From Anadara kagoshimensis (lineage: Eukaryota; Mollusca; Bivalvia; Arcoida; Arcidae): 64,000 nucleotides of DNA. The stretch is from positions 33,181,523 through 33,245,522 of the forward strand of contig CM037868.1 in NCBI GenBank assembly GCA_021292105.1. The letters run 5' to 3'. The notes beneath the pieces were generated by a model that worked only from the letters and a program-made list of their open reading frames with translations, was not told the DNA's origin and made no database searches. The translations under genes were made by a program, and so were the position numbers. Below, piece by piece: positions 848 to 45,445 of this stretch (position 1 is its first letter; every line of letters starts with the position of its first letter).

Positions 848-898
848 CCTCATCTGCATGGATGGGCGGTGGTGGTGGAGGAGGTAGAGGAGGCGGAG
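848..898 (+). CDS. micro-exon 1 (first visible), Gly-rich, nested donors
   Basis: The acceptor 'atttcag' ends at 847. Read in phase 1 the exon gives SSAWMGGGGGG and continues Gly-rich. Three in-frame phase-1 donors are possible, after 883 (gtagag), 898 (gtaggg) and 904 (gtatag), giving 36, 51 or 57 bp. None is a strong consensus, so the end is uncertain. The preceding codon base comes from an exon outside the window. Confidence 0.6.
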
Positions 899-3800
899 GT
901 AGGGGTATAGATATGAATTTACAATTTCTCGTAAAAACAATCTAGAAGGTTTCTTGCAGGCGTATTGCGAGCCCAGGCTAATCAAGGCTCTCAAAAAGTA
1001 ACCACAGTATTATTGATAAGTTTGATGTTTCTATGTCCAAGATTGCTTGAATATATTTGACATCGACCGTAACCACAGTATTATTGATAATTTGATGTTT
1101 CTATGTCCAAGATTGCCCTGAATATATTTGACATCGAATAGTTCCATGTTCGTTTCAATCAATTTTGATTACACATGTGGCGTATGTAGCTGGCTAAACA
1201 AGTTGTGCTTACCCTTCCGTAGCACCCGGCTTCACCACCCTTGTGAAAGTTCACGTGTCTAACTTAACTTGTCAGTTACAGTTTTTTATATTTTGCTTCT
1301 GTATTGTGATTCGGACATGGATTAGTATTTTTGTTTGTGACTTTTTATAATAAAGAATTATAAATAATAAGTAGACATTTTAACGCCAAGACATTTGTGT
1401 ACTTAACATCTATATTGTATAATATCAACAGATAAGTATTAAAGAAAAAAAAATATAAATCATAATCAATAAAGCTTTTAAGGAATTGCATTTCATATTC
1501 ACTTCATGTACAAAGTTGTTGTCAGTTCATTGCTGCTGAAACTTTCGGTTGTAAATCTGAAGAAAATGTAGATCTATATGTTGTCTAAAATATTTGCTTG
1601 AAGTTTATAAAATATGGACTTGATAAGTATCTACATTCTAAATTTACATGGTTATATAATCAGTTAATTATCAATTTTCTCAATGTGTTTCACCTTTCCT
1701 TCTCTGATAGAAAATAACATTTATTTCAGATACACAGTCTTGTTTTCTGTTTTATATGGTTTTGAATTTTATATAAAAGTAAACCTTCCTATAAAGATTA
1801 ATTTTATAGATTTCAGTACAACGAAACTATAACATTTTGAAAATCTGCATTATACTTCAACAAGTTAACAATCTTAAACAATTAAGGAGCACCATGCGTT
1901 ATCTTCATATCTACACGTTAATCGTAGTGGCTAATAAATGCTGTGAAAATCTTAATTAAATATTGACGATTTTGTTTTAGCTGGATTTCCTAATATGATG
2001 AACATGGGTGGAGGCGGAGGAGAAGGTGGCGGACTAGGAGGTCTTGCAGGTAAGTTGGAATCAATATACAATCTATAGCTTTCAAATAATAGGTGTTACC
2101 AAAAAGCAAAAGGCAAATTTAAATACGATGCCAAGTTGTGATTTTTGTTCCAATATATGCGTGAGTATATCAAAACTTCATTTAGAATATTTACCTCAAT
2201 TATGAAACCCAAAAATGGCTGTAATTAAAGCTGTATGACGGGAATAATGACGCCATTTTCAAATAATCTTAACGTAGTGATATTGCAAACATATGATTAT
2301 CAACATTTTACGGCTCTTTATAAGCCAGGACTAGCAATATCATTCTGTCAGTTCAGCAGGCTATTTTTTTTTATTTTGTGTACAACAAAGTCTTATGTTA
2401 ATGTCTTTTAACTGTACCATTTCACTTATTGCAGCACTATTTTTTAGTCCCAAAATTTATTTTTCCTATGTTTAAAAAGCTTGATTTTGGCATAATTCCT
2501 TTACAACTTTATACCACCGCATTTTTTACTGAACTCATAGTGTCGATAAATCGTGGTATCACTGTTTATCAATTTTCTGTTTATTTTTTTACTATTGTAG
2601 GAATGATGAGTATGTTTGGAGGCGCCGGTGGTGCTGGAGGTATATAAAACAATTACTTTAAGTTTTTTTATCTATGGGAATGGTGAATATACGATAGATG
2701 TGTTTGTCTTATAAAAACTACCTATATTTCGCTTCCCCAAGTTGATTTTATTTACCTGTCTCACACCTTACCTGTACGGTAATACGATATTTGTACATCA
2801 CTTCTTGTGTGTCCTTTTTATGTAACAAATCAAAACTTTAGTATATTTATAAAAGCAGAAACAGTTAAAAGGGGTACTGATGATATCAAAGCACATGGCT
2901 GTCCAAAGTGTTTGACAATTAGCCTTATATAAAAAACAAACATACCAGTCCATGATCAAATCATAATTCGCAACACAAAGTAAATCCGATGAAAACTTAC
3001 AAATTGATTTCCATCAATTAAGAAAAGACATTTGCTCCGGAATGGTGCACACGTCTTGTGTATTTTGCTACTTCTGCGACGTTTTTAATAATTTAAACTT
3101 CTTTGATTAAAAAAAAAATAATTGTGAAATTTTATTTCTGAAACTTTAAATAAAGGCTGAGAATGTATCTTTTCTTGACTTTTGTTCGAAGAGTATACAT
3201 TTAAAGTTTGAAATTGTATAACCCGGTAACTTTCAATTATAGTGTCTTTTTATGGTTTTTAAATAATTTTCATTTTGCTTAAACGATTAAAAACATATCG
3301 CTTCAATGATATTTTGTTTTTTTTTTGCACGAATAAATCTACCATTTTTTTAATATATTTATATACATGAATTGATCAGAAACAAAGTGTTAAAAAACAT
3401 GACTCAACAGATGTACGCTGATTTTCACGACAAATTTTCAAGTCTTTAGAAATGTATTTCAGAGGGAATGCCAGGTGGAGCAGGTATATTTTTAAAAACA
3501 CGAAATGGATTTGCATGGTTGAAATTGAAAGATAAAACGCATGTCAAAAGCTACAACTTGAATACGTGATTAATTTGTATCAAAATGTATTGGATACACT
3601 TTCTTTTGACATGATTTAACATTGCTTTATTCGGATCTTACGTTAACACTTGACTTTAAATCTATTTTGGAATAGGATTTGGAAAAATAATGTCCCAGCC
3701 AACTGATAAAATTGTAATTACTTGCTCTGCTTTGAAATTCCAAAATATCTTTTATAATCAAAGAAACATGCATTATATAGTAAAATTGATTTGTGCAAAA

Positions 3801-6800
3801 ATATGTTTTAGAAATGAAATAGTGGCTGCTTCCTGTTTTACATATAACTAAAATGATTATAAAGTTTATAAATTATGATTATTCTACACCTCAGGGATGT
3901 ATCTAAGCGTGATAGCCGATTATTTTATGTGATGTTTTGCTTTTATTGTAAAAATGTCGGATAAAAGACATATGCGTTATATGCACTGCTGCTAATAAAT
4001 CAAAGATCATGACCTTGCTGGATTGCAATATTGGCCTTAATGTCACTATTAGCATATGTTCTCACTGTCCTTTATCCATCTGTTTGTTCGGGACCATGTA
4101 TTCTACTTGTTTATTTCTGTATGCTTTGTCAAACCCTGTCGATGCAAAATACCCAGCATGTATTTCTGTACGCTTTGTCAGAGACCAAAAGTCTACCCTT
4201 GCAATATACCCTGCTTGTCTCAGTTGTTTTATGCATGTCGCTTTAAATTGGATATTTCTTGCGAGATGAAAAATATATGAGAAGTTGCATTGCTTATTTC
4301 CATCAGTAGTGTGTCTATAATTGTGAAAAAGAATTGAATGGTTGAGGTGGCTTTACAAGACTGTTTAAGATGCTTTTGTTATGGTTGCTTATTACTTTAG
4401 ATTGTTGAACCGTCAAATCTTGTTCGAAATTTCAATTAATCTTTCAAGTTATAAAGTGAAATATGTTTTTTATGAAACAAGAATCGAACTTTTAATTTTA
4501 AAAAGTTATTTTATCAATAATAAATTAATCATCGAATAAAAATCATCAAAATTATATTTTATTTTTATATCACAATTATCACATTTTTTTTATTTTCTCA
4601 AATTATCTATAAAGAGCAGGACAAATTTATTTTAAAACTAGTATTTTGTAAAAAAATAAAAAATAAATAAACAAACAAAAAAACTTAAATTTTTAAAATC
4701 GACATTTTACTTAATATCACAATTATCAAATATATATATTTTTATTTTTCAATTATTTTAAAGAGTAAGAATATTTAAATTTAGTATTTTTTATGATTAT
4801 GCATTAAAAATTAAATTTAAACTTCAGGCGGATTAGGCGCCTTGATGGGCGGCGGAGGAGAAGGAGGTATGTAGTACAGAAGGAATAAATAACGGCGAGA
4901 AAGTCGCCACGTAAAAACAAAATCTTAGTAGGCAACACCTTTGTATTGTCTGGAATATACTTTTGTCTAAAATCAATCTGAAAATCTTAAAACAACTAAT
5001 GTATACTCTCTATTACAAATAACAAATTATACCAGTTTTAATTTTACACTACAAGACGACCGTTTTGGAATACAATTCTTTATTATTGCTTAGACCAAAA
5101 ACTGTGAATTTTTTAAAGGTGTTGAAAAGGTACGCAACGAACCAATATAAATATAACCAAATGTAACTATGGCAATACTTTGTAAAATATTCCTTAGCTT
5201 AATTGTATTGAAGATATTGTTGTTCTTTTGATATTTTTAACGCACTGAAAAAAATGTTAGTTTCACGATTTTGGTGCAAGCACTAATGGCGGGAAAATGT
5301 ATTTCGAAACGGCCGTCTAGTGCTGTAAAATTTACACTCGTATATTATGTATATTAAAATCCTCCTTCATATATGATTTTATAAAGTTGCTTAGCAGCAG
5401 CATTGATTTTCACCAAAAAAAGAAAAAAATAGTTAATATGCAGAATGTGCGACAAAAAATCTTCTAAACTTTTATAATCCCCGGCTTTAGTAGCAAACAC
5501 TCACCTGAAAAATTCAAAGTGGAAACATAACTTCAATTAATCGAAATCGTGGTTATATCCTTAAAATTAAAAATTCAGGATTGAACAGATGCATAAGCCC
5601 CGATTGACATAATGCCAGTCAAAAATACAAACGTAACTTAAAAAAAAAATAAATTTGAAAGTTCTGATAAATATTTAATATATTTCAAACATTGCAAATA
5701 AAAACTTAAGAACAGCATAGACACATTTATATCGGGATTTTATAATTATCAATTAATGCTTTATACCCAAGAGTCAAAAAATTTATTTTGTTATTTTTGG
5801 AGATTGGAGTTTAATAGGTAATATTTGATTATTGATGTGGCTTTTCTTTTTTATTTCAGGTATGAATCCAATGATGCTAAGTCGTAAGTATCTTATAAAT
5901 TGTATAATTCAAAATTCAAATTTAAAATTAAAAATTCTTAAAGTTGACATTCCATTAACTTTCCTCAGCCGATATGACATAATTTCTAGTTATTACCTTT
6001 GATGGTTTTTGTCATGCACATGGTATGTTGAGAACAAATTTGTTAATATTTGTGAATTACAATTCAATATAACGTCAACCGTTTAAATGCTACGATAGAT
6101 AAGCCTTATACAATAACAAAACAGTTGTACAACCCTTAGTTGTTTTATATACAGTATAACCTGCTTTAATTCCACCTCTATATAAGGGCCACCTGCTTAT
6201 AAATACCAGTAGAATTATATCCCAATTGCTCTTTTTTTCATATAATTTGAACCTGCACATAAAGGCCACCTGCCCGTAAGGCCACTTTTACCGGTACCCT
6301 TGGGTAGCCTTTATAGACAGACAAGTTTGACTGTAAAAACTTCATATCCTTATATCTCTGCCTAAAAGTGTGTTGATTATTTTGTTCTAAGAAAGACGAG
6401 TGTCAACATCTTAATTGAACAGTTTTAATAAGTTGTATAACAAATTTTTATTATTAATTTCAGTTTTAGCCGGTGGCGACCCAGCTGGTATGTACCAAGT
6501 TATTTTACTCTAAGTAACACATTATCCCAATATTTCTATCTTAATAATCATAAAATCATGAAACCGTTCAGACAATTGTGTCTTTTGAAATGTTAACAAA
6601 TAGTAAAGTATAACGTTTAGTCTGTGTATATATATATACTGCAGATCACTTATTTTTCTAAGTAGCTAATTTGGCGTCAATACCATCTTGGCCTTATTCG
6701 CGAATATTTAAATTCGCGTTTGGAATTTTATTAAACACAACATATCTTTTTTAACATGCAAATATCTGAGTGCTGGAAATAGCCGCGTTATATTTGAAAT

Positions 6801-9800
6801 CGCGAATCAGATGAGTCGCGAATATACGCAAAAATAAATCTCTCGCGAAATAAAAGTGATATACAGTCATTGTAAATTAACAATCTGTGTAGTGTGTCAT
6901 TATTGTGACCGTGCATATTGAAGTTAAATGCAAGTAATGTCTTTTTTATATGAATTATTACTTAGTACATGTACAAAGATGAATGCTTAGACAGCACGTG
7001 TTTGCAATTACAGCCATGCTTGTAAATAATATAAATTATTAGTATTTCTACTAACGTTTCTAGATTTTCATATAAGTTTTTATATGTGAAATTCCATAAG
7101 TTTATGCACTAACTAGCCATAATTTAAAATAAAACATAAAATAAGATAAAAATCGAACGGCAAACAAAAAGAATTATTTGCGCTAAAACGTTTCCTGAAA
7201 GTAATTAGTTTAAAGATTTTTTTTGGGGGGGTGATAATAATAAATGTTTCAGATTTTTTAATTATTGTAATTCTTAAGCTAAATTAACTTTTAATTTGTA
7301 ATTGAATTAATACAAATATGGTTAACAGTATAACTAAAAATAGAAGATAAAGTATAAAAGGCAAGAATCAGAACTTAACATTGAAACTACAAATGTCTTA
7401 TTTGTTAGAAACTGTTCATCAAATCGGTAAAACATCAATGCAAAAAAATGTGCTTAATAACAAGCAACTATTAATATTTAAAATTAGTTGCAATTGCTAT
7501 TAATCAATTGTGAAAATCATTCACACAGAAAACGATTCACGTTTAAATTACAATCTTGAAAACAAAGTAAAAACTTTGATAATTGGCAAATTAAGTAAAT
7601 ACGTAGGCTTTCATCAGGAAAGTAAAACAGAGTGCTACGTACTTCATGTTTGATGTAAGTGTAGCTACAAAAGCTACATACGAATTCAAAAATAAGAATA
7701 AAAGCAACATGAAATTGTGAAACGTTGTAATGAACACAAACTTCCTGTCTTTTTATGTTTAATTCAATTAACTAAACTAACCACTTGTAACCAAACTTGA
7801 CATTTGTAAAAAAACAAATTTCATTTTTGTCTTCAAAATCTATTTGTTGACAGATATTCCTTTTGCAGGTAAGTATTAATAAGCAAATGGCTCAAAGCTT
7901 CTTTAATGTGTTCGTTATTATACGTATTTGTCATCTTTATATGTCCCTTCACCCCTTTTGCTTCAATATGTCCTCCTTTCTGAAATTTTATTAGATAAAA
8001 ATCTCAACAACAAAGATTTACCTCCTATTACAAAGATTTAACTTTGCTAAATTTGGTTAAATATATTTTGTTTTTCTGGATATTTATTCAATCCCTTGAA
8101 AAAAAATTTGGTTTCACAATTTTGGTTTAAGCTATACTGATAAGAAATTGTATTCCAAAACGGGCGTTTAGTACTGTGAAATAAACACTGGTATAATATA
8201 TAAATAGTTATGATACTCTGTACAAATACGTTTTTATCAGATGTTTGCAATCTCCTCAGCCTCAGCATATTTTCATTCAATTGTTTAATCAGGTCAGATA
8301 CTTATATATACTGGTCAAATACTAATTATCCATTTCTTTGCCAGTGTTAGACTGATAAAGCCTCCTGTACAACTAATTGTACTGAAATAGATGGTGGATC
8401 AGTCAATCAAGTCGTCATGGACGCTTGTCTGGTGGAAATCATTTTGTTAGAAGTAAAAATTTCAAAAGTTGCAATTACAATACGCAAATACAAAACGCAA
8501 CGTCAAATGACCTTTTAAGTAACTTATTGGCATTATAAGAGATTTCTTGTTTTCCGTTTACCTGTTGAACAAAGTTTAGATTATGTTACCTGTTAATTTT
8601 TTTATTAAGTTGAAAGTTTTGTGTAACGTACAGTTAATAGATTTTCTTACATATTTGTCAATAGATATTCCTTGGGCAGGTACGTAGAGTGTGTAATAGA
8701 TGCACGATGTACGGCGTATTCCTACAATTTCTTACCCAAATGCATGGGGACACTATAAAATAATTAAAAAAACATTAATAATTACTGAATATATATTCCA
8801 AAATATCCAGTTATATAAACATTATAAACTTGATATGAAAAATTGATTTTATTTTTATTCACAAGTGTTTGGCGAATTAATTTTGTTAAGAGTAAATTTC
8901 AAATTTTTCTTTTTTTAATGTAAATTTTATTAAAATGTATACTTAGACCATTCCTTCTTTGAACAGTTAAAAATACCACCGAGAGTTAAATTTGGATAAT
9001 TATATGCATGCATGAAAGATTTAAGAATTATAACGTCGAATTTTAACTTTAATTAATTATTTGCATGTAAAAACAATTTCAAAATAACGGCAAACATTTA
9101 TGAAAAATAAACGCACTCTAGCGCATGCGCATCTGATTTTCGTTTTTAATAAAAAAAGTTTATGCTTTGAATGGCATCTCTTGTTTACGTACATAGCTTT
9201 TCTCTTTTTGCATATTTCTGAAAATATTAAAAAAGCTGCACCAAAAACCCACTTGTTATTATCACGAGCTCCTTAATGATTCATAAGATTTTGAATGCTT
9301 TGTGTATTTCATTATCTCACATATCTTTATAATGTGTTTTATATTTTTATAATTGCATATATATATTAAAACGTAGTTTGATTACAGTAAAGTGCATGTG
9401 ATATATGGTTTAATATTCTATACCTTCTGTATATTTTGTTGACCATTAATTCTGTAATTAAACATTGACATAAATTGTATATTCGATAGCAACATATCTA
9501 TGATGATAAACAAAAAGGAAGAAAGGTGTGACTAAAGCATGAATTATACAATTATAATTATAATTATACATTATTATATTTCATGACACTTAACTTTAAT
9601 TAATAGAGTAAAGTTTTATTAAAATTCTAACTGACTCAATAAAATCTTTGTTAAGCCTGTCATGTATGCTAATGCCACATTAAGCTCCAAAACTATTAAT
9701 TAAAAGAGACAATTATTTATCAATAAACCTCTACAGGACCTTTATTAACTTTTATTAGACAAAATTTGCAAATCCATCATATAAATCACATTAAAAAGGA

Positions 9801-21800: not shown

Positions 21801-24800
21801 CGAATGACGTTAAAAATGTGAACTTCCACCAGGGAAGTGAGGTAGACTGCTCCTGGGTTGTAAGCACTTTTCTATTTAACTAGCTTCACCCGCCACGTGT
21901 GAAATTCTTTTTGTGGTAAGCGAGGTGACAAAGTTATAAGGGGGTATTATATCGAGTTTTTTACTGTATAAGTCATATTTATATATTTCACTTGACGTAA
22001 TGATTTTTCTTATATGTACATGTATTCCAAATTTATTTTTATAACAAATGCAACTGATTAACAATTATATTGTCGCTTCTTGCTTTTGTAGATGTATACC
22101 AAATTTATATTTATAACAAATTTATGCAACTGATTAACAATATTATGTCGCTTCTTGCTTTTGTAGATGGTGTATCTAATTTTATGCTTACTAATACCGT
22201 CGTAGATATGATTGTAGCAAGTATGTATATATTTAGCTGTTCCTCGTTATTTTATTCATTCTCTATCTTGGTAATGGGAACATCTGTAAGATGTTTTTTC
22301 GGCTATACAGCCTTTATCAAGAAACTAATAATTTAGAAATCTACTACATTGTTCCTTTAACTTGCACTACTAAATTAAAAAAAAATGTCGTACATTTCTA
22401 AATTTCTAAATTATAAGTGTCTTGATGTATGCTGTATAGCCGAAATATTGACAAAAAGAGCTGACTTTATATTGTCATTGTTAAATGGATTTTTCCCTCA
22501 GAGATACTATTAAAGAGTTAAATGTAATATAACTATATTTATGCCTCATCTTGCGTACTTTATCTAGTTAGTAACCTTCTTCCATTCATCATTTTTTAAT
22601 TTTAAGAAATAAGATGTGTTTAAATTAAAAAAAAAAATATTTGATTGAACAGAATCTCCGTCAAATTAATCATTAAACCAAATATATTACAATCTTCGTC
22701 TTGATTGGTGATGTACATCTGGTCACTATGGATTTGTCAAAACATTTTTAGTACATTTACTGTCGCACATTGCAAGCTGTGTTGCATTTGAGGCGGAAAA
22801 ATACAATGAAAGAAAAAAAATGAAAGTTATTTTCATCGTACCATGTTATTTCTTTTTCACTTAAGTTGAAAAGTTTTAATTTAATTTTGATCAAATTATC
22901 CGTATTCCTATTAGTGTTTTTTGGATGGGTTTTACCTTTTGTTGCTTTCACGCATGAAAACTGAATATTAAATTATTTACAACAATGTCTTTCTATTTAT
23001 TGTTCACTTGTATATATTTTTATTTTATTTCATCTTAAATTTTAGCAATTCAAGGAGACCATATATGTAAGTGCATTTTAAATGTAATATCTAAAGTAGC
23101 CACATTTTAACTGATATTTGTTTAATGTATATTTATCAACAAATTGTTATTTTTTGCAAATTATTACTAGGAAATTTTTTTGATTTTAATTTTGTTCCGT
23201 AATTTGTATTATAAAGTGCATTTCAAATGTAAATTTCGAAGTCACATTTTACCTGAATTTTATTTAATATATCTTTATCATCAAATTGTAATCTTTCGCA
23301 AATTAATATGTGCAAAATATTTTTATTCACTATTTGTACAAATCTTGCAATAATGAATTTGTGTACATGTCTGTTGAAAGAAACAACAGTTTAAATTATA
23401 TTTGTATTGCAAAGATTGACATACTTCAACCTATATAGTTCAAAATATGACGAGGCAAAATATCAAGTGAATTTTGAGGATGTAACCAAGATCATGAAAC
23501 AACCATGGAATAAAAACAGTATCAAACAAGATAAATATGTTGTAAAATTAAAATTGACAGATCGCCAGCCACGCCCTCAATGTTGCGACAAAGACCGTCA
23601 TCAAGCTGCCAAAGCAGCGTCACGGCAACTAAAGACGTACTATGTCAATTACGTCATTAAATGACACAATTCAGGCCAAGTTTTCATTCTTTTTGTGTGT
23701 AATACAAGCATGCCAGGCTTTTGTGTAAACATTATGGGCGTGGTGGGCGATCCGACACTGTTTACAAAATGCACGACTTAACGATGTTTGAAAAGATTTT
23801 TTTGCTAAATGTACCTTGAAACATGCATGATTCAATCCAATATCATTTTACTTTTATATAGCTGACATCATGGGAGGAGGACCAGGGTTAGCATGTAAGT
23901 AGATATGTCGATTTTTAATTTTTATTTTTTTTTTCAATTCAAAACGCTACAACTGAACGTGTTGTTACGTACATCTTCCCTGGTGGAGGTTTAGGTGTAT
24001 AATTTAATTTGCCAGTTGTAAATAATTTTATTATGCGTTTGATTAGAGTATATCTGATTAATTGAAATAAAACAATCGCATTTTGAAAACGATTATTGTA
24101 ATTTATTAACGTTTACATCAGCCGAAATCTGACGACGACAAAAATAAAAAAACGCATGTCAGAAAACCGAAAAAAACAATCAGTGAAAATTGTATTACTT
24201 CTTTTGGTAAAAAAAAAATTTGATCCCTCTTAATTTTCCATTTTTACGTCTTAAAAATATTTGGATTTTCACCATTCTAGTCCGAGCACTCTTTCCAATT
24301 TCTTTATTTGATTTAATCATTGAAGTGTTTAGAAATAGAGAACTCCATTGCCGTGCAAAGCAAACTGCAAAACGTGCGGCAACGGATATAACACTATATA
24401 CAGTTTAATGGTTATAATTATATTTCGCATTTGTTTAAAAAAATTATTTTGATTATTTTATCCTGTCCGTAATAAATCTAAAACACCATAATACACTACA
24501 TGTAATTCCAATCACTGGAACAGCCAATCATATAGATTTAAGATAAAAAGAGTAACGTCACTTTAGCCATGGGTATTACCGTCCTATAATTTTATTTGGT
24601 TTCAAAGCGAATTTATTGCAATCAAACATCATAAATGTAATTATCACTGACAGATCATGACGTATTTTTGTTTTCTCTTTGTAGCTCGTTTACCTCCAGA
24701 TATAAAATGTAAGTAGAAAAATAACACAGCATATGTCGATATAAATATGTTTTTGTCACTTCGAATGGGTTTTTCCAAATTTCTGGTCTGTTTAGCGTTT

Positions 24801-27800
24801 ATAAAGAAAATTTCTTCGGAATGTTTTGATTTTTTCAATTCAGCACAAATAAAAATTATACCTGTCTTACAAATTTAGTATTTGCTTCAGAAAAATTACG
24901 TAAATATTAGTTAAAACATTTTAAGTGGATTAATTTTACACGTTAGTCAAGCTTCGTTCATACATCTGAGGAGATAAGTTCTGTGTGACAGAAAAGGGAT
25001 TGACCTTTGACATGGTAACTGAAAAAAGGATTCTCTGAGATAACGTTCAATTTAAATCGGAAACGAACAACCTACCATTAACACGTAGTTTTATTAATTT
25101 CTTCTTAAAAAACTGTTTACTTTACCGATGTTTAACATGTTCTTAAATTTGTATCTTCTTTGTTTTAGTACAAGCAGCCAAAATGAGTTTAGGTAAGAAT
25201 TATTTTAAATCTCAAGAAAGGAATCACAGTCATATGAACAACATGACGTCATAAGCAGACAGCTATACGTCATGATGACGTATGGTCTGTGAAATTCTCA
25301 GCTTGTTCAGGTTGTGGTGTGAAAAGGTCTGTAGGTGAGGTATAGAGTGTGTCAGAAATACTTAATGCTTTTTATGTATGTTAAATAACTATTCATATTT
25401 TTCTACGTTACTGTTTGTTCCCTATAATATCAATTTACACAATTGTATTTTTCTTTACGTTTTACAGTTTTTAAAAATTGGCTAAACTTATGAACAATTC
25501 ATTAACGTTTATCAACAATCATCAATAATGTTTACTTTAACATTAGCAACAACTTTTAACGTCAAATTACTTTACGATATATGTATGAGATTATTTGAAA
25601 ACAAATATTCAATTAATTGATGTCCATTTTAAACACAAACTACCGTAAAAAAGTAACAAATAACGAGTAAGTATTCGAAGATTTTTAGACCTCTTTTTCC
25701 AACGGATTTTATTTGGAAAACCGATAATGATCGACTACATGCCAATACAGTACTTTAAAATGTTTCTGTTGAATGGAGTTTATTTATATACATGTAGTTA
25801 AGTCTTTATTGGTACAATGACAATTATAAAGGCTTTGATTAATTTTATTTACCTTATTTTCATTCCAGCTGGCCAATCGGGTGACACAATAGGTAAGTTT
25901 TATTTTTCTTCAAACTTTTCTCAAAAATGTAAAATGAATAAATTTTATAATGTTTCCGGAGCACATGGCCTCACTTCTTAATGTTTTAATACACCAAATA
26001 AACACCTTATTTTCAATTTTTTTAATATTTTATCTTCCTACTCCGGCAAATTCATTTCTAACATTTCTCTCTTTTTATTGCTATGCCTGGCGTTTCTATA
26101 AGATAAAAAGATAATGAAATAAACTTCAAATTTTATTCATTATCAATTCAGTTATCTGATTTCTTCTTTTTGGATATATTACAACTAATGTCTCGTTTTA
26201 AATTTTAAAATTGAAATTGGAAAATCTTTGATTAATAAAGGTGTTATTATGTGAAAATAATTAACATTGAAATTATAACAGCAATTTAATCAAATACTTT
26301 CAAATTAATTATAATTAACAAGCAGAAATGTTAAATTAATAATATCTCTCTTTTTTTAGCCGATGTTCTAGGTGCAGAAATGAGACGAAGACGTAAGTAA
26401 AATTCTATTGAAAGGCTGTCAATATAACAGTATCAATTTATCATTTGCGTCTATTTATACAGTCAAAACTGTCTTAAAGGCACCTCTATATAAGGGCAAC
26501 CTGCTGATAAAGGCCAGTAGAATTGTATCGCAATTGTTCTTTCTCGTTTTATTTGAACCTGTATATAAAGACCATCTGCCATAGATGCCACTTTTACTGG
26601 TTCCCTTTGATGGCCTTTAAAGACAGGTGTCACTGTAGATCCTATGATAGCACTGTGACCATATTACTAGACAAAGCATTCAATACTCGTCCAAAAGCCC
26701 GAGTTTTATAATCAGTGGTAAAAAAATGTGCCTTTAATTTTTACATTAGTTTGCAAATGATAGAAGTTTTGTTCTTAAAGGTAAAGGACTAGTCTTTTAA
26801 AATTAAACTACAAATATTAAGCAATACAGTCAAATCTGTCTATAAAAACCACCCAAGGGAACCTGTTAAAGTGAACTTTATAGGCAAGTGGTCGTTATAT
26901 ACAGGTTCAAATATTATCAATAAATAACAATTAGGATAAAATTCTACTGGCCTTTATAAGCAGGTGGTCTAAAAATAGAGGTGGCCTTTAAGGCAGGTTA
27001 GACTGTATTTATATCAGTTTGGCGGTAAAGAAAACCTTTTTAGCTAGTAATTGTTTTTAACACGCACAATGAAGAATGCATAAATTAGTTCTTCTAAGTC
27101 AATTATGCAAACCACTCTACAAGTTTTCAGTTTCATTGTTCATTTGATTTAATAACCATTTCATGTTTACACTATTTTGCATTTCATAGAGATTTTAATA
27201 TTGATATGACGGTCTACAAAACATCTATGTAGTTGTTTTACACGAAAAGATTTTGATTGTTTTATACATTTTATTGGTTTCTTCCATTTCAAATAAATAT
27301 TTTCGCTCTACAGATGTTCAATGATCAGCCATATGGATAGTTATATTAAGTTCATCATGTTATTATAACAAATTCATCCGTAATGTGTATGTTAATATTT
27401 TAAGACATTCTTAACGTTGTTATTTTTCTTTTTAAACAGGGCGAATGGGTTTGATAGGAAATGGTATGAGTAAGTATTAGATTTTTACAATGTATCCACA
27501 GACATTTATAAACCAATTTTTACATTACATTATATATTTGAAGTCATATGATTCTCTTATTTCAACATTTCCACAATTTCGGTTCAAGCGCTATTTATCC
27601 AGAATTTTACTCCGGAAAAGCCGTTTAGTGCTTAAAATTAAAACGAGTTAAGGAAACTGCTATACTTTTATGCTTAAGCTGAGTTTAATACACTAAAATA
27701 TTGCGTCTACGCCATTTTTTTGTACTGTCAAATTTCGATGTATAATTCTTATCTAATAAATCCATGCAACCGTATAAAAATCTCTGAGTAATGATCTTAC

Positions 27801-30800
27801 GACATGGTGTTATATGACGTGGCAAAGACATTTGGCCGTATGCAACACAGTTTTGTTGTATTTGCCAAAGTTTGAAGTCAAGCAGAATTTAAATATTCTT
27901 CATAATGTTTTTATTTATATACATGTATCTTTACATAAGGTAAATACTTATTCGTCGAAGAATCTCATGCGAAAAATGTTTTGGTTCCATAATTTTTTCC
28001 AACACTACTGATAGGGAGTTGTATTCCGAAACGGTCGTCTTGTGCTGTAAAATTAAAACTGATATAATATGTAATAATGCAGTTGGCATACCAAAATATT
28101 TAATTCAAATTATCATTGGCAATTGTATTTAATTTGATAAGTACAAATGTATATATTTTTATGAATTATAAAAAGTATTTTATAACTTTTTATTCTTATT
28201 CGTAGTGGGAGCAGCTGGTAAGTTTATATAAAAGCTTCGTTAAAACTGCAGGTGCAATGTATAGTTGCAAGTGGTCATTGTGGTCATGGTTCGATATAAC
28301 ACATTTCAGAAGTAATCAATGTCTGCCCGTGGTATATTATACATTATACAATTACTTACGAGGTCAAAATGGTGAAAGGAGAACCCGAGAATGAGTCCTG
28401 ACTTCGGTGATTTGAGCCGGCCTCAGTCGGGGGTTAACCACCGAAAAGGTCAAGTCGAGGGAACTCATTTCACCATATTGACCTCATACATAGTAAATAA
28501 TTGTTTTTATTATACCGAAACCTTTTGAAATTATTCGCTAGATATGGAAGCAAAACGTGTCTGCTCTATTGCGCTTTTTATTAGCACATCTCCTCAGAGA
28601 AAATCAGCCGTTTTGTGTCAACAGAAAATCAACAAATGGCCTTCATCATGGACAGTATGACGTAATATCTATAGTTCGTTTCAATATTTAATTGTAACTA
28701 AACTCTGTATCGAAATTTAAAAGCTATTGCGAGTCAATAATTAATGTTGACCTGGTCAATAGTTAACGAAGCTGAGAATTTTTTTTACTTTTAGGTCAGT
28801 AGTCGAAAAAGGTCATTACAAAAGATCCAATCAAAATTCCAAAATCTCATTACTGGTATAATAATTTGGAATAATACAGGGGTCGGATATCACATGTGGA
28901 AGAATAAATCATGATGTGGCAAAGCAACCGAGTGACATATTTTCCACATGTGAAAGACGGTCCTTGTATTTTTGACTATATACCACGGGTAGATGTGAAT
29001 TATTTATATTCTAATATGACTGAAATCAAATGCATTCAAATAAACACTACAAACTCTAACCTCAGAAGCAGAGTTTTACTATTTATTTTTCTTGTCAATT
29101 TGGCCGTTCAGATTACCGCCATTTAGATTATTGATTTTATGAACAAAATTTGCTTCACAATCACGTAATTTTTAATCGACGTCACAGTTAATTTTAAAAT
29201 GAATGTATTTTCTTAAAACGTTCAAGAGAGCATATGATGTTGCCACAAAAAAGCATTTTAAGTAAACACGTACGATTGACTTTATAAGTTCTATATCTTT
29301 GCATTTCTGTTCTCTTTTGATTATTCATTTGAAACTATTGGGATCATCGCCCGGTAAACGAAAATGAAAAGATACCTTATTTAATCTGAAGCATGAACAG
29401 GAAACTCAATACACGACGTAAAATGTCACAGAAAAGCTACATCACTGCTAAAGCATGCATGTCTCGGAAACTTATTTGCTATCACAAGAAGTCGGGAAAA
29501 AATTTAATACTGTGAAATCATTTATTTTCGAGATTTTTCAATATTTTTTTCAATTTTCAATATTTTTCAAAATTTTTCAATTTTTCAATTTTTTTTTTTT
29601 TGGACAATATGACCCATGAATTTATATGTCAGCATAAATGTAATTTAAAACGAAAACACACAACCACAAATTTACCATCTCATTCGTTTGCCTCCAATGA
29701 GTTCCGATAGGAGAAAATAAATGAATGGGAAAAGGACTTATGTTTTAACCTTCCAGGCTGTCTATTTAAAATATTGTTCTTTCTTTTTGTCTTGTTCATT
29801 ACAGTGGTTATATTCCGGTATAATACACAATTTATTGCCTTTTTGAGTGAGATTTGAACATTTGTTTATCCTTAACAAGACAACTTTTCGGGCTAGGTTT
29901 TTCTTAGAGCTTCGAAAATTCAATAACACAAAAATAAATTATTTCACAGTATTTGGGATACTTACTTGTGTTAATGTTAATTGTGAGGGTGTACGAATTA
30001 AACTAGAGAATTATTGAAGGGTCAAAATCAAAAACTCAACCAATATTTGGACGATAATACTATAATTTATTGCGATAATACATATTAAAATAGAAGTCTT
30101 GTGCGTTTATATTAATCTTTCCGTTAGCAAAAAGTCACCGTAGAAAAATCATATCGTAAAGCAGAAAATAGATTTTGATTGAAATAAATATACATGTCGT
30201 ATGTTAAGAAAACGGATTTGTGTAATTTCACAATTTGTCCACCTCTATTGGTGTGATTCCAGTTTATAACTTTTTTTTGGTACTTCAAAAATATAACAGA
30301 AACTACGAAAGTTAAAATATCATATTTTGTCAAAAGAACATTTTTTGCATATAGATGGTCATATATTAAATCTCTAGAGTGCGTACACCCTTAATTAAAT
30401 AAAAGACAGTATATCATTACTTAGATGGATCCAGATGTAATTAGACTAGTTAATGACTACTTTTTGTTTCATTTATTTTCTTTCCTTTAGAACAATTCCA
30501 GTAATTACTTATTTTCAGTATTGAGGTTTGTAGAGTTGTCTCGAATGTAATATATGGCAGTGATTGTTTGGTATAAATGTGGCATGATTTTTTAAAATCG
30601 CCATTGCTTTGAAATATTAAGCATGAATCAGCTTCATTTATTATTTTAATTGCACTTGATGCAATGCATATTTTCTTCCCTTCTAAGAAGCTTTTGATGC
30701 AGATTTTCTTAAAGTTCATATTTTTATATTTTTAAGAAGACAGTCATGCGACAGCAATATGAATTTTCGGTACGTTAACAGTGATGATGTATTGAACCAT

Positions 30801-32998: not shown

Positions 32999-33034
<36 letters not shown>

Positions 33035-33207
33035 GTTGGGGGTGGGGGGGTGGGGGCTATTTTCATTCTGTAATAATATAATAAATTTTAAACATTTGTA
33101 ATAATGTATGGATGGCAGTGTACACGATCCCATACTTTATGTATTATTCAATAAATTCATACACAAATAGTAAAATTTATGTCACCTTTATTGCAGGTAA
33201 AAGGTAG
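848..33207 (+). CDS. micro-exon gene, Gly/Met-rich plus Trp/Pro/Gln-rich protein (gene span, 5' end off window)
   Basis: Seen: 24 exons with acceptor and donor signals join into one open frame of about 905 codons ending at TAG 33205-33207. Coordinates are 848-883 (or 898/904), 1981-2049, 2601-2639, 3463-3483, 4828-4866, 5860-5883, 6464-6487, 7854-7868, 8665-8679, 10473-10487, 11293-11322, 14747-16219, 18125-18487, 19769-20059, 22167-22220, 23046-23066, 23862-23894, 24685-24708, 25169-25192, 25869-25892, 26360-26392, 27440-27469, 28206-28217 and 33197-33207. Every internal exon is 3n long and splits codons after the first base at both ends, so any exon can be skipped without a frameshift. The first part of the protein is Gly/Met-rich, the middle is basic and disordered, then rich in W, P, Q, N and S, followed by an Ala/Gly block and short mixed cassettes. 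No known domain was recognised. Inference: a secreted or structural, possibly matrix-type, protein with combinatorial isoforms. The start codon and any signal peptide lie left of the window. Very small exons could be missed or miscalled. Confidence 0.75.
1000..1136. repeat. tandem duplication, about 70-bp unit x2
   Basis: The block starting 'gtaaccacagtattattgat' occurs at about 1000 and again at about 1070, each ending in 'atatatttgacatcga'. The two copies are nearly identical, so this is a recent intronic duplication. Confidence 0.85.
1981..2049 (+). CDS. micro-exon 2, 69 bp
   Basis: Lies between 'tgttttag' and 'gtaagttgg', phase 1 to phase 1. It encodes AGFPNMMNMGGGGG followed by EGGGLGGLA. 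The strong donor and Gly/Met composition match the neighbouring micro-exons. Confidence 0.85.
2601..2639 (+). CDS. micro-exon 3, 39 bp
   Basis: The acceptor is 'actattgtag' and the donor is 'gtatat', phase 1-1. It encodes GMMSMFGGAGGAG, another Gly/Met cassette. Confidence 0.8.
3463..3483 (+). CDS. micro-exon 4, 21 bp
   Basis: The acceptor 'atttcag' precedes it and 'gtatat' follows, phase 1-1. It encodes EGMPGGA plus a split Gly. Confidence 0.7.
3484..4827. other. intron, nothing further recognised
   Basis: Very AT-rich sequence with A/T homopolymer patches around 4440-4810. Short overlapping open frames at 4009-4280 lack splice support and composition like the gene, and no repeat family was recognised. 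Confidence 0.5.
4828..4866 (+). CDS. micro-exon 5, 39 bp
   Basis: The acceptor 'acttcag' and donor 'gtatgt' flank it, phase 1-1. It encodes GGLGALMGGGGEG, like micro-exon 2. Confidence 0.82.
5022..5350. mobile_element. foldback repeat FB-1 (two arms in opposite orientation)
   Basis: The left arm carries 'ccagttttaattttaca..gaccgttttggaatacaattc'. The right arm carries the reverse-complementary theme ('gcaagcactaatggcgg', 'gaaacggccgtctagtgctg'). The same family recurs near 8046, 19312, 27565, 27985, 34728 and 35258. It is non-autonomous and contains no ORF. Confidence 0.65.
5860..5883 (+). CDS. micro-exon 6, 24 bp
   Basis: The acceptor 'tttatttcag' and donor 'gtaagt' flank it, phase 1-1. 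It encodes GMNPMMLS with the last codon split. Confidence 0.78.
6151..6334. mobile_element. MITE family TIR-2 (ACAGTCAAACCTG ends)
   Basis: About 184 bp bounded by 'acagtataacctgcttta' and 'gacaagtttgactgt', an imperfect terminal inverted repeat. Internal phrases such as 'ctctatataagggccacctgc' are shared with copies near 10043, 21248, 26459, 26826 and 54800. Confidence 0.75.
6464..6487 (+). CDS. micro-exon 7, 24 bp
   Basis: The acceptor 'aatttcag' and donor 'gtatgt' flank it, phase 1-1. With the split codon it encodes LLAGGDPA. Confidence 0.75.
6488..7853. other. intron with decayed palindromic cgcgaa-rich repeat
   Basis: Between about 6690 and 6860 repeated 'tcgcgaat'/'attcgcg' motifs sit in opposite orientations. 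They look like an old palindromic MITE related in style to the CTGTAAACG family at 14088. The rest is AT-rich with no recognisable exon. Confidence 0.45.
7854..7868 (+). CDS. micro-exon 8, 15 bp (DIPFA)
   Basis: The acceptor 'gttgacag' and donor 'gtaagt' flank it, phase 1-1. With the split codon it reads D-I-P-F-A-(G). It is nearly identical to micro-exon 9 at 8665 (D-I-P-W-A), which suggests a duplicated 15-bp exon. Confidence 0.7.
8046..8205. mobile_element. foldback repeat FB-1, single arm
   Basis: Carries the family order: 'tttggtttcacaattttgg', then 'tgtattccaaaacgg', then 'gtttagtactgtgaaataaa' and 'ctggtataatat'. Only one arm was recognised. Confidence 0.55.
8665..8679 (+). CDS. micro-exon 9, 15 bp (DIPWA)
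   Basis: The acceptor 'tgtcaatag' and donor 'gtacgt' flank it, phase 1-1. It is a paralogue of micro-exon 8 with Phe replaced by Trp. The pair could act as alternative or additive cassettes. Confidence 0.7.
9833..10048 (+). mobile_element. SINE-1 copy, 5' truncated and diverged
   Basis: Contains the SINE-1 body in order: 'ggattcgaagccccgtcggg' (box B part), 'tctgaccaagatttgaaa', 'caagcactgag', 'aatgaaag', and 'cacctgtagctggcaat'. The tRNA-like 5' end is mostly missing. Confidence 0.65.
10043..10132. mobile_element. MITE TIR-2, partial
   Basis: Starts 'acagtcctacctctgcct' and continues with the family's 'catctatataagtgtcac' and 'ctagtagaatttta' phrases. The other terminus was not found. It abuts the truncated SINE-1. 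Confidence 0.6.
10473..10487 (+). CDS. micro-exon 10, 15 bp (DAPPG)
   Basis: The acceptor 'tattttcag' and donor 'gtaagt' flank it, phase 1-1. It encodes D-A-P-P-G with the following Arg split across the junction to 11293. Confidence 0.68.
10529..10835 (+). mobile_element. SINE-3, tRNA-headed with V-SINE-like central motif
   Basis: The head resembles a tRNA pol III promoter: box A-like 'tggcctagtggttaagg' and box B-like 'gggttcgatccc'. It is followed by 'gtgtccttgagcaagacac', which resembles the central domain described for V-SINEs, and 'gatggaccggcgtcccat'. The 3' end has a 'ctttaactta' repeat. It may belong to the molluscan RUDI/V-SINE group, but that is from memory and unconfirmed. Confidence 0.75.
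11293..11322 (+). CDS. micro-exon 11, 30 bp
   Basis: The acceptor 'cctcttcag' and donor 'gtaaag' flank it, phase 1-1. With the split codon it reads RGMGGMGGIR, again Gly/Met-rich. Confidence 0.8.
12115..12262 (+). mobile_element. dispersed repeat DR-1, 3' truncated
   Basis: Shares the ordered phrases 'atccatgtcagaatcacaat', 'aactttggaaccgacaagt', 'gggtgctccggaagggtaag' and 'tagctagctacaccc' with copies near 18631, 21765, 31576, 34972, 37283, 56597, 60563 and 62828. No ORF or clear TIR was seen, so the class is unknown. Confidence 0.75.
12752..12840. repeat. short minisatellite, 'atatcacaccccaat'
   Basis: Six or so variants of 'atatcacaccccaat' occur head to tail. An open frame through it is a by-product of the repeat. 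Confidence 0.8.
12995..13337. repeat. tandem repeat, about 61-bp unit x5-6
   Basis: Units share 'cagacctcgggctaaagtc', 'ctgtctgagattggggtctt' and 'gaccgatatgaa'. Copies have diverged by point changes. The array lies in the long intron before the large exon. Confidence 0.85.
14088..14286. mobile_element. palindromic MITE TIR-1 (CTGTAAACGTATTT)
   Basis: Bounded by 'actgtaaacgtat' and 'aaatacgtttacaat', with inner 'ccgcg'/'cgcgaaaataaa' blocks in inverted arrangement. The internal 'cttattgtgttacagtgcat' is the reverse of the order in the other copies, so it lies in the opposite orientation. Confidence 0.8.
14448..14660. mobile_element. palindromic MITE TIR-1
   Basis: Begins 'actgtagacgtatttaattt' and ends 'aaataaatacttttacagta'. 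Central 'cataacataagtttagc' resembles the copies at 20509 and 31996. It ends about 90 bp before the large exon. Confidence 0.85.
14747..16219 (+). CDS. large central exon, 1473 bp, disordered W/P/Q/N-rich region
   Basis: The acceptor 'ttctag' ends at 14746 and the donor 'gtaaca' starts at 16220, giving 491 codons in phase 1-1. The first residues FGGMPML keep the Gly/Met style, then comes a basic KKRQ run that resembles a furin-type site. Next is a long K/S/T/P/N-rich stretch with sequons such as NIS, NIT and NDT. It continues with QKRF and FDPNWQQPFNKY, then a Trp-rich half (SW, RNW, RPW, QQW motifs) with poly-Pro/Gln, ending in a Gly-rich tail. No globular domain was recognised. The open antisense frames inside are low-complexity shadows. 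Confidence 0.85.
16220..18124. other. intron after the large exon
   Basis: Holds a near-perfect hairpin at 16426-16500 and otherwise AT-rich sequence. An open frame at 17101-17316 has no splice context consistent with the gene. Confidence 0.5.
16426..16500. repeat. near-perfect inverted repeat, arms about 33 bp
   Basis: The left arm 'taagaaataacattctattt' continues to 'attcattc'. An 8-bp loop follows, then its reverse complement ends 'aaatagaatgttatttctta'. It lies about 200 bp after the donor of the large exon and could form a hairpin in the pre-mRNA. Confidence 0.9.
18125..18487 (+). CDS. exon 13, 363 bp, Q/P/T/N-rich
   Basis: The acceptor 'tttacaag' and donor 'gtatgt' flank it, phase 1-1, 121 codons. 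It starts GATTNTFQQFNRKQQN and continues with PTAPW, PPPPQW, EPWAPTN and PQSW motifs, matching the second half of exon 12. The Pro-Trp repeats mark the same disordered domain. Confidence 0.85.
18631..18900 (+). mobile_element. dispersed repeat DR-1, near full length
   Basis: Runs from 'aatccatgtcagaattacat' through 'tccggaaggataagcac' and 'cacccgccacgtgtg' to 'atccagggcaatcctggac' and 'actgtgatgacggccataaa'. At about 270 bp it is one of the two most complete copies, the other being at 62828. Confidence 0.8.
19312..19570. mobile_element. foldback repeat FB-1, two-armed
   Basis: The left arm 'gagcactactggtgaggaa' with 'gaaacggatgtctagtgctg' is followed by the inverted 'cagcaccagacggccgtttc' and 'ttcctcatcagtagtgcttg'. 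An outer 'aaaaggtacccaaaggacc'-like flank follows. This is the clearest palindromic copy. Confidence 0.8.
19769..20059 (+). CDS. exon 14, 291 bp, N/G/A-rich
   Basis: The acceptor 'tttatttag' and donor 'gtacgt' flank it, phase 1-1, 97 codons. It begins NSWTGGNNQFGGQG and has Asn- and Phe-Gly-rich repeats (NFGAPTT, NFGGPTT). A Gly/Ala block follows, and it ends GMMNPFADRIVTGPGIP. The GMMNP words echo micro-exons 2, 3 and 6. Confidence 0.85.
20509..20721. mobile_element. palindromic MITE TIR-1
   Basis: Begins 'actgtaaacgcatttaattt' and ends 'aaataaatacgtttacagta'. It has an internal 'aacacaataagcatactta' phrase shared with 31996. Confidence 0.88.
20865..21114. mobile_element. foldback element with 'ggtcaacagcattaacctgtc' type ends
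   Basis: The left end has 'aacctgtccgtttgaacttt' and the right end has 'aaaggtcaagcggacaggtc', which are inverted. A related but rearranged copy with 'aacaacattgacctgtc' lies near 58668-58800. Confidence 0.65.
21248..21431. mobile_element. MITE TIR-2
   Basis: Begins 'acagtcaaacctgcctta' and ends 'cacaagtttgactgt', about 184 bp, with internal family phrases. Confidence 0.82.
21765..21908 (+). mobile_element. dispersed repeat DR-1, partial
   Basis: Has 'cacaattcaagagcaaagta', 'cttccaccagggaagtgagg' and 'cacccgccacgtgtg' in family order. The 3' part is missing. Confidence 0.7.
22024..22170 (+). repeat. tandem duplication carrying a splice acceptor
   Basis: A roughly 72-75-bp unit ending 'gtcgcttcttgcttttgtag' occurs twice, with acceptor AGs at 22090-22091 and 22165-22166. 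The spacing is 75 bp. Reading from the upstream AG in the gene's phase stays open to 22167, so its use would add 25 codons in frame. Confidence 0.85.
22167..22220 (+). CDS. exon 15, 54 bp
   Basis: The acceptor 'cttttgtag' and donor 'gtatgt' flank it, phase 1-1. With the split codon it encodes HGVSNFMLTNTVVDMIVA. A 75-bp in-frame extension is possible from the duplicated upstream acceptor. The composition is less Gly-rich and more hydrophobic than its neighbours, so it is less certain. Confidence 0.65.
22301..22449. repeat. inverted repeat with 'ttcggctatacagc' ends
   Basis: 'ttcggctatacagc' at about 22299 and 'gctgtatagccgaa' at about 22430 are inverted copies separated by about 115 bp of AT-rich sequence, so this may be a small MITE. 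Confidence 0.55.
23046..23066 (+). CDS. micro-exon 16, 21 bp
   Basis: The acceptor 'aattttag' and donor 'gtaagt' flank it, phase 1-1. It encodes (x)IQGDHI with split end codons. Confidence 0.68.
23560..23752. mobile_element. MITE TIR-4 (GGATCGCC..CCACGCCC)
   Basis: 'gatcgccagccacgccc' on the left and 'gggcgtggtgggcgatc' on the right form an inverted repeat. Internal 'gtcacggcaactaa' and 'gacgta..gacgtca' phrases are shared with the copies at 35302 and 41433. Confidence 0.82.
23862..23894 (+). CDS. micro-exon 17, 33 bp
   Basis: The acceptor 'ttatatag' and donor 'gtaagt' flank it, phase 1-1. It encodes SDIMGGGPGLA, returning to the Gly/Met style. Confidence 0.8.
24685..24708 (+). CDS. micro-exon 18, 24 bp
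   Basis: The acceptor 'tctttgtag' and donor 'gtaagt' flank it, phase 1-1. It encodes SRLPPDIK. Confidence 0.76.
25169..25192 (+). CDS. micro-exon 19, 24 bp
   Basis: The acceptor 'tttgttttag' and donor 'gtaaga' flank it, phase 1-1. It encodes LQAAKMSL. Confidence 0.78.
25869..25892 (+). CDS. micro-exon 20, 24 bp
   Basis: The acceptor 'tcattccag' and donor 'gtaagt' flank it, phase 1-1. It encodes AGQSGDTI. Confidence 0.78.
   Translation: MANRVTQ
26360..26392 (+). CDS. micro-exon 21, 33 bp
   Basis: The acceptor 'tttttttag' and donor 'gtaagt' flank it, phase 1-1. It encodes ADVLGAEMRRR. The Arg run continues into exon 22 and makes a basic patch. Confidence 0.8.
26459..26636. mobile_element. 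MITE TIR-2
   Basis: Begins 'acagtcaaaactgtctta' and ends 'aaagacaggtgtcactgt'. The internal 'ctctatataagggcaacctg' is the family hallmark. Confidence 0.85.
26826..27006. mobile_element. MITE TIR-2, opposite orientation
   Basis: Begins 'acagtcaaatctgtctata' and ends 'ttaaggcaggttagactgt'. It is inverted relative to the copy about 190 bp upstream, so the pair could also pair with each other in the transcript. Confidence 0.85.
27440..27469 (+). CDS. micro-exon 22, 30 bp
   Basis: The acceptor 'tttaaacag' and donor 'gtaagt' flank it, phase 1-1. With the split codon it encodes RRMGLIGNGM. Confidence 0.8.
27565..28080. mobile_element. foldback repeat FB-1, two decayed arms
   Basis: About 27575-27660 has 'tcaagcgctatttatccaga' and 'aaagccgtttagtgct'. 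About 27985-28080 has 'ccaacactactgataggg', 'cgaaacggtcgtcttgtgc' and 'aaactgatataatatg'. Both read the same way, so these may be two single-arm copies. Confidence 0.5.
28206..28217 (+). CDS. micro-exon 23, 12 bp
   Basis: Only 12 bases lie between 'ttcgtag' and 'gtaagt', phase 1-1, encoding MGAA with split ends. The small size makes it less secure, but phase, donor strength and composition fit the series. Confidence 0.55.
28349..28503. mobile_element. palindromic foldback element
   Basis: 'caattacttacgaggtcaaa' followed by 'atggtgaaa' on the left is mirrored by 'tttcaccatattgacctca' and 'tagtaaataattg' on the right, about 155 bp. It is GC-richer inside than its surroundings. Confidence 0.75.
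29507..29952. mobile_element. TIR element with 'actgtgaaatcatttatttt' end
   Basis: The left end 'atactgtgaaatcatttatt' and the right end 'aaataaattatttcacagt' are inverted. The interior carries a 'tttttcaa' minisatellite and no ORF. It is similar in style to TIR-1 but a different family. Confidence 0.72.
31576..31850 (+). mobile_element. dispersed repeat DR-1, diverged
   Basis: Has 'tcaacctgtgttcaaattac'-like start, 'gaagtaggttcgggtttccg', 'acgatggaacatcaaa' and 'actattgtgatgacgcccat'. The order matches the family, but divergence is high. Confidence 0.6.
31996..32172. mobile_element. palindromic MITE TIR-1
   Basis: Begins 'actgtaaacgtatttaattt' and ends 'acatacgtttacagt', with internal 'aacacaataagcataata'. 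Confidence 0.85.
33197..33207 (+). CDS. terminal coding exon (…GKR stop)
   Basis: The acceptor 'tttattgcag' ends at 33196. In phase 1 the split Gly is followed by Lys, Arg and TAG. A C-terminal Gly-Lys-Arg resembles an amidation and dibasic processing signal of secreted peptides, but it may be chance. No clear AATAAA was found in the next 400 bp, so the transcript end is undefined. Confidence 0.5.
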
Positions 33208-45088: not shown

Positions 45089-45445
45089 ATGGCTACGGGA
45101 GAAAATAGGCAGTTTGAAGTATGGGACTGGGTAGTGTTTGCTGCGACTTTGGCCATTTCTGCGGGAATAGGAATTTTTTACGCTTTGCACGATGCTTGTG
45201 GTGGAAAAGCTAAAACTTCTTCGGATTTTTTAATGGGCGGAAGGAACATGAACTTGATTCCGGTCGCCATTTCTATACTTGTGTCCTTTATGTCTGCGAT
45301 CCTGATTTTAGGTACGCCAGCGGAGATGTATACAGAGGGAACCCAGTATTTTATTTACCTTTTTGGGATTATTTTAGCCGTAATTCTAGCCGCTTTGCTC
45401 TTTGTTCCGTTGTTGTACCCTTTGAAGTTAACGAGCTCTTTTGAG
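45089..45445 (+). CDS. SLC5 start exon, copy 1 (intact)
   Basis: 119 codons from ATG with A at -3, ending SSFE before 'gtaagg', phase 0. It covers the N-terminus, TM1, the conserved SDFLMGG loop, the Ser/Gly-rich TM2 (ISILVSFMSAILILGTP) and TM3. It is the same length as copy 2 but differs at many positions (DACGGKAKTSS versus SQWSGKNKT), so it is not a recent identical duplicate. It probably has its own promoter. Confidence 0.88.

Follow-up and report, generated by a model that had tools for sequence, protein, structure and literature searches.

Symmetric phase-1 micro-exons in the 3′ part of a bivalve gene probably encoding a secreted matrix protein

A stretch of 64,000 nucleotides from the arcid bivalve Anadara kagoshimensis—hereafter the window—contains on its forward strand a run of very small exons that all appear to share one reading phase. 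This raises the question of whether these exons form a real gene, what protein they encode, and whether splicing might mix them into variants. The original prediction, made from the sequence alone, described 20 internal micro-exons of 12–69 bp plus three larger exons, all of a length divisible by three (3n) and all in phase 1-1; their coordinates, borders, and phases were verified throughout. The gene model comprises 24 coding exons at 848-33207 (+)—20 of 12–69 bp, three of 291–1473 bp, and a final one of 11 bp. Apart from this final exon, all (23 of 23) have a length of 3n and are flanked by phase-1 introns on either side (class 1-1). The exon borders are GT-AG throughout, so that 23 of 23 introns between the exons are GT-AG and 23 of 23 are phase 1, and the donors read GTAAGT in 11 of 23 cases and GTATGT in four of 23. 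As the acceptor of the first exon in the window has the same phase (1), this exon is internal too. Joined over 848-33207 (+), the exons give an open protein of 910 residues with the stop at its end. The window holds 2735 coding nucleotides, of which 597 fall in the small internal exons and 2127 (78%) in the three large internal exons. The fully symmetric phase-1 micro-exon architecture is hence confirmed as real.

The exons are listed here along with their counterparts in hypothetical protein KUTeg_014543 of Tegillarca granosa (Arcidae, 1555 aa; hereafter P0001), the only homologue found among 5.8 billion database proteins.

E1, 848..898, +: 51 bp, 1-1, first in the window, gene extends upstream; 14/17 residues identical in P0001
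E2, 1981..2049, +: 69 bp, AGFPNMMNMGGGGGEGGGLGGLA; in P0001
E3, 2601..2639, +: 39 bp, GMMSMFGGAGGAG; not in P0001; splice score 12.9, Gly/Met content
E4, 3463..3483, +: 21 bp, EGMPGGA; not in P0001; Gly/Met content, low splice score of 9.0
E5, 4828..4866, +: 39 bp, GGLGALMGGGGEG; in P0001, there minus one Gly
E6, 5860..5883, +: 24 bp, GMNPMMLS; not in P0001; splice score 25.5, the highest of the eight exons not in P0001
E7, 6464..6487, +: 24 bp, LLAGGDPA; in P0001
E8, 7854..7868, +: 15 bp, DIPFA; not in P0001; donor is the full consensus
E9, 8665..8679, +: 15 bp, DIPWA; not in P0001; strong donor, weak acceptor, sum 9.1
E10, 10473..10487, +: 15 bp, DAPPG; identical in P0001
E11, 11293..11322, +: 30 bp, RGMGGMGGIR; not in P0001; Gly/Met content, low splice score of 8.8
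E12, 14747..16219, +: 1473 bp, 1-1, Lys/Pro-rich, then Trp/Pro/Gln-rich; 382/470 aligned residues identical in P0001
E13, 18125..18487, +: 363 bp, 1-1, Pro/Gln/Trp-rich; 102/119 aligned residues identical in P0001
E14, 19769..20059, +: 291 bp, 1-1, Asn/Gly/Ala-rich; 80/97 residues identical in P0001
E15, 22167..22220, +: 54 bp, HGVSNFMLTNTVVDMIVA; not in P0001; least certain exon, low splice score of 9.5
E16, 23046..23066, +: 21 bp, TIQGDHI, or PIQGDHI if joined to E14; P0001 carries the predicted P
E17, 23862..23894, +: 33 bp, SDIMGGGPGLA; not in P0001; splice score 17.0, Gly/Met content
E18, 24685..24708, +: 24 bp, SRLPPDIK; identical in P0001
E19, 25169..25192, +: 24 bp, LQAAKMSL; 6/8 residues identical in P0001
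E20, 25869..25892, +: 24 bp, AGQSGDTI; 7/8 residues identical in P0001
E21, 26360..26392, +: 33 bp, ADVLGAEMRRR; 10/11 residues identical in P0001
E22, 27440..27469, +: 30 bp, RRMGLIGNGM; identical in P0001
E23, 28206..28217, +: 12 bp, MGAA; identical in P0001
E24, 33197..33207, +: 11 bp, terminal coding exon, GKR and stop

The stretch from E1 to E11 consists of 41% Gly and 12% Met. At the other end, the C-terminus MGAAGKR of P0001 corresponds to the splice from E23 to E24—reading through past E23 would give GKFI and a stop instead.

A global alignment of P0001 with the window protein pairs 811 residues, 678 of them identical, and the large exons are 81–86% identical. Of the 24 exons, 16 have a border-to-border counterpart in P0001 (E1, E2, E5, E7, E10, E12–E14, E16, and E18–E24), the smallest of which span 15, 12, and 11 bp; the eight small exons E3, E4, E6, E8, E9, E11, E15, and E17 are without a counterpart. 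Single P0001 residues that the raw alignment put in E4 (1/7), E9 (1/5), and E11 (1/10) are read as residues at joins and not as parts of these exons. The match is poor for the last ~15 residues of E12, which are absent in P0001, and for the first few of E13. As the exon borders coincide, within what a protein can reveal of them, and both C-termini read GKR, the two sequences mark the P0001 gene as the same one or as a very close homologue. P0001 carries 720 residues ahead of its E1 counterpart; hence, the window is confined to the 3′ part, and the originally proposed span of 848..33207 stands for the exons and falls for position 848 as the gene start. The mollusc origin that had been suspected is borne out and narrows to a relative of Tegillarca, with P0001 as the only match. 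The protein search requires shared 5-residue words and limits length, and distant relatives could escape it; within this scope, no relatives beyond P0001 appeared among the matches listed (one match, 7992 scored candidates), and further protein searches returned only P0001 itself (1 of 644 candidates) or no match (0 among 70 candidates).

A phase-1 intron falls inside a codon; where an exon is left out, the residue encoded across the new junction may therefore differ. At the six P0001 joins with missing exons, phase-1 joining of the window exons predicts G, V, D, R, P, and S, and P0001 agrees with the prediction in six of six cases (GGLA-G-GLGAMM, GGGE-V-LAGGDPA, DPA-D-APPG, APPG-R-FGGMP, GIP-P-IQGDHI, and HI-S-RLPP). 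With every exon included, the V, R, and P joins would carry L, G, and T instead. For joins of neighbouring exons, seven of nine agree with P0001, with E1-E2 and E12-E13 disagreeing. On the level of the compared sequences, this shows exon borders and phase to be common to both species, the P0001 sequence itself being no proof of an RNA origin. The eight exons without a P0001 counterpart may reflect skipping, loss in one lineage, absence from the Tegillarca genome, or a miss in the annotation.

Are these eight exons real? For a scan of the window, splice-site matrices were trained only on the 16 P0001-matched exons, and candidate exons were defined as 3n, 12–69 bp long, and open in phase 1. The forward strand of positions 1-33400 yields 34 candidates and the reverse strand one, and the two strands of 34001-64000 yield 7 and 9. 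The 34 forward candidates comprise the 20 small exons of the model, eight that have a site in common with an exon of the model, two within E12, and four standalone ones:

776-790, +: standalone candidate exon from the splice-matrix scan
5990-6022, +: standalone candidate exon from the splice-matrix scan
20810-20824, +: standalone candidate exon from the splice-matrix scan
26979-26996, +: standalone candidate exon from the splice-matrix scan

The candidate at 776-790, which lies just upstream of E1, is 15 bp long, 3n, open in phase 1, and scores 12.2; it could be chance.

Simulated introns contain a mean of 3.15 (100 simulations) or 3.66 (400 simulations) candidates as good as the weakest exon. 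Observed are the eight exons without a Tegillarca counterpart plus the four standalone candidates; 0.5% of the 400 simulations reached 12 and 4% reached eight. Within the eight, E6 (25.5), E17 (17.0), E8 (14.5), and E3 (12.9) score well, and E15 (9.5), E9 (9.1), E4 (9.0), and E11 (8.8) score low. Open candidates of at least 12.8 number four among the eight exons versus 0.88 on average in the simulations (at most 3 in 100 runs); open phase-1 candidates of this strength number 4 (forward) and 1 on the two strands of 34001-64000. Within the introns of the gene, decoys whose length is no multiple of three or whose phase 1 is closed attain scores as high as 17.1, and the 28 free candidates in 1-33400, taken over all length classes, top out at the same value. 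By splice score alone, the eight exons are not separable from background. Their splice sites also show no more than a trend towards being weaker than those of the exons kept in P0001, short of significance (acceptor p 0.058, donor p 0.59, sum p 0.21).

The composition is more telling for some of them: E3, E4, E11, and E17—four of the eight—contain at least 45% Gly plus Met, and E6 contains 43%. Candidates with at least 45% Gly plus Met occur at 0.0075 per simulation and in 0 of 17 cases in three control strands. In addition, E8 and E9 are identical in 13 of 15 bases. The seven exons other than E15 are probably real. E15 itself is doubtful; it is backed by its frame and moderate splice sites only, and its acceptor lies within a tandem duplication at 22015-22169 (~72 bp, 2.1 copies, 88% match). 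Chance open reading frames as the source of the architecture are ruled out by orthology together with the strand, region, and simulation controls, E15 excepted.

It is quite possible that the weak small exons—E15 foremost, then E4, E9, and E11—are chance and that the true set amounts to about 20–23 exons. Their scores of 8.8–9.5 lie within the range of chance candidates, 3.15–3.66 of which are expected in the introns, and composition support is absent for E15. On the contrary, E4 and E11 are Gly/Met-rich and E9 is a near-copy of E8. Either way, this reading touches single exons and leaves the architecture intact.

The origin of the small exons was approached by comparing 190 small-exon pairs with 120-bp flanks. 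The ten best pairs score 25–27, random intron pieces have their 95% point at 23 and reach 29 at most, and E8/E9 is outside the top ten; as the top pair scores lie within the random intron range, there is no clear exon-duplication signal. Likewise, 19 micro-exon peptides show no match beyond composition to P0001 residues 431-736 (500 shuffles each, smallest 54/500). This stretch takes in 16 residues of the E1 counterpart, where no best match falls.

The introns of the gene also harbour a MITE-like element in three copies (14449-14657, 20510-20718, and 31997-32170) with inverted ends of about CTGTAAACGTATTTAATTTCGC. A partial copy in opposite orientation is located at 14163-14288, just before the copy at 14449-14657; the end itself gives 7 matches at up to 3 mismatches, with none expected. 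The stretch at 10530-10800, which begins gtggcctagtggttaaggcgttggactc and contains gggttcgatccc, resembles a tRNA-derived SINE by eye; ARAGORN reports no tRNA in the window. Downstream of the gene, two satellite arrays are found at 39065-39959 (157-bp unit, 5.7 copies) and at 41813-43182 (42-bp unit, 32.7 copies; its two strands carry ORFs of 368 and 349 codons). For three consecutive ORFs at 45089-45481, 47684-48118, and 50470-50790, Pfam gives a match to the beginning of SSF (PF00474, the sodium:solute symporters), with the third scoring under the cut-off; they may be tandem copies or alternative first exons. An ORF at 61116-61466 matches Pfam Transposase_1 (partial DDE) and is probably a transposon remnant.

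What kind of protein does the gene encode? The N-terminus of P0001 is hydrophobic, with a mean Kyte-Doolittle value of 2.15 over residues 2-12 (the best 11-residue window from residue 16 reaches 1.72), and this signal-peptide-like start makes a secreted product likely. The best 19-residue window after residue 16 reaches only 1.28; hence, P0001 bears no later obvious transmembrane segment. Secretion is likely as judged from the hydropathy of the Tegillarca N-terminus, and the product of the window gene, whose N-terminal part lies outside the window, may be secreted too. P0001 contains one Cys in 1555 residues. Its layout runs from a Ser/Asn/Pro/Thr-rich part into a Gly/Pro/Met-rich one (residues 430-800: 31% Gly, 10% Met), onward through a Lys/Pro/Ser-rich part into a Pro/Gln/Asn-rich one with 18 Trp (residues 1010-1340), and ends in an Ala/Gly/Asn-rich part followed by a Gly- and Arg-rich C-terminus. 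Basic sites occur in both species at MLKKRQ, PKHRRRP, LQKRF, EMR.RRRMGL, and the terminal GKR. Pfam gives 0 matches for the joined window protein and 0 for P0001, and the PDB gives 0 matches, in line with the initial view of a protein of no known family. Composition, likely secretion, and taxon would fit a structural matrix protein, and the tissue suggested by them is most likely shell, ligament, or periostracum. On balance, we consider it probable that the window covers the 3′ portion of a gene from Arcidae that encodes a long, secreted structural matrix protein, which its composition suggests to be disordered and which carries cassette micro-exons.

With all introns in phase 1, each small exon would act as a cassette whose inclusion or skipping leaves the reading frame intact. 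Each cassette would add or remove 4–23 residues and could alter the residue at the junction, and the choice of cassettes would affect how long the protein is and how much Gly/Met, Asp-Pro, or C-terminal sequence it contains. Hereby, the cassettes rich in Gly and Met might modulate a region that is flexible, and possibly cross-linkable, in front of the constant Trp/Pro/Gln-rich core, with the C-terminal cassettes as a possible second variable segment after it. The symmetry, the shared borders, and the lack of eight cassettes in the protein of the relative are plain observations; alternative splicing and a matrix role would be built upon them. We tentatively suggest, as one possible reading, that a bivalve evolved a micro-exon system of its own, in which some 20 cassettes are mixed by splicing per cell, tissue zone, or animal. 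In purely arithmetical terms, the eight exons without a Tegillarca counterpart would permit 256 combinations, and all twenty about a million. The very large isoform set of the original prediction is therefore arithmetically possible and, as stated, unsupported—the sole evidence of variation is one P0001 record without eight exons.

Two further readings have to be weighed against such cassette splicing. It is somewhat unlikely that the symmetric exons are real and spliced essentially constitutively, with the Tegillarca differences reflecting lineage-specific gain and loss of small exons, rendered harmless by 1-1 symmetry. The architecture would then be an evolutionary product—for example of introns at G|GT in Gly codons and of exon duplication—and not a generator of isoforms. 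This would be in keeping with the full GTAAGT in 11 of 23 donors, with the lack of a significant difference in splice strength between kept and missing exons, and with E8 and E9, whose 13 of 15 shared bases look like those of an exon duplicate; moreover, one predicted protein from one other species is all that is known. However, exons of 12–15 bp are generally hard to include constitutively, and the loss of eight of 20 small exons, with large exons that are 81–86% identical, would amount to a rapid turnover.

The basic sites, which are conserved in both species, might also point to a processed secreted polyprotein, that is, a peptide precursor cleaved at KKR, QKR, RRR, and the terminal GKR, with the last peptide amidated. 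We regard this as very unlikely: by eye, no short peptide is repeated between the basic sites, a long protein containing Lys and Arg has basic pairs by chance too, and the length, the bias towards Gly, Met, Pro, and Gln, and the poly-Thr runs are features one would sooner expect of a matrix protein.

If the matrix protein is indeed made as mixtures of cassette isoforms, the mechanics of shell or ligament could be tuned by splicing. A clear bivalve case, with exon borders that recur in another species, would mean that the micro-exon design can arise independently, and would offer a concrete gene for asking whether splicing tunes structural biomaterials.

The schistosome micro-exon genes (MEGs) are an obvious comparison. 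As outlined in the relevant passages of PMC4350168, most of their coding region lies in very small symmetrical exons, they are apparently restricted to platyhelminths, and their products occur in secretions, glands, and exposed epithelia. The likeness, going by these passages, is that tiny symmetrical exons can be left out without loss of frame (PMC4350168). In the window, 20 of 20 small internal exons are symmetric. The original prediction had gone further and spoken of the architecture of schistosome micro-exon genes, which does not hold against the quoted description with its coding region mostly in small exons (PMC4350168), as 78% lies in large exons here. The 2127 of 2735 coding nucleotides in three large exons refer to the window, the upstream part of the gene lying outside. 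The phylum differs as well, and no schistosome or parasite protein is among the homologue matches, the gene being set apart from MEGs by their description. With 78% of its coding bases in three large exons and no schistosome match, it is not classed as a MEG.

Bivalve proteins with Met-rich regions are closer by taxon. Abductin consists of tandem GGFGGMGGGX repeats; in P0001, GGFGGMGGG occurs 0 times and FGGMGGG once, with no tandem decapeptide. According to the pertinent parts of PMC7591529, Met-rich regions are common to insoluble nacre, prism, and ligament proteins of Pinctada fucata. Abductin, MRNP34, NU-5, and LMP are Met-rich bivalve proteins as well, several of them from the insoluble matrix of shell or hinge ligament (PMC7591529), and it is the Met-rich regions that the window protein has in common with them. 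For the exon structure of the Met-rich shell proteins, the main text of PMC7591529 contains "splic" 0 times and "exon" 0 times. The likeness of MRNP34, NU-5, and LMP to the window protein is hence one by description. No micro-exon gene of this kind in a mollusc is named in the titles and abstract openings found, a set that covers subscription journals thinly.

Among matrix proteins, tropoelastin offers another comparison, with many small 3n exons of class 1-1, Gly-rich hydrophobic content, cassette splicing, and a basic C-terminus. An elastin relation finds 0 Pfam matches (Pfam may lack an elastin model) and no vertebrate match in the protein searches. The window gene differs in that no Lys-Ala cross-link domains are seen by eye and in being rich in Met, Trp, and Gln and not in Val, Pro, and Lys. 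Nevertheless, it shares the small class 1-1 exons, and tropoelastin would, by analogy, be its closest architectural counterpart among matrix proteins.
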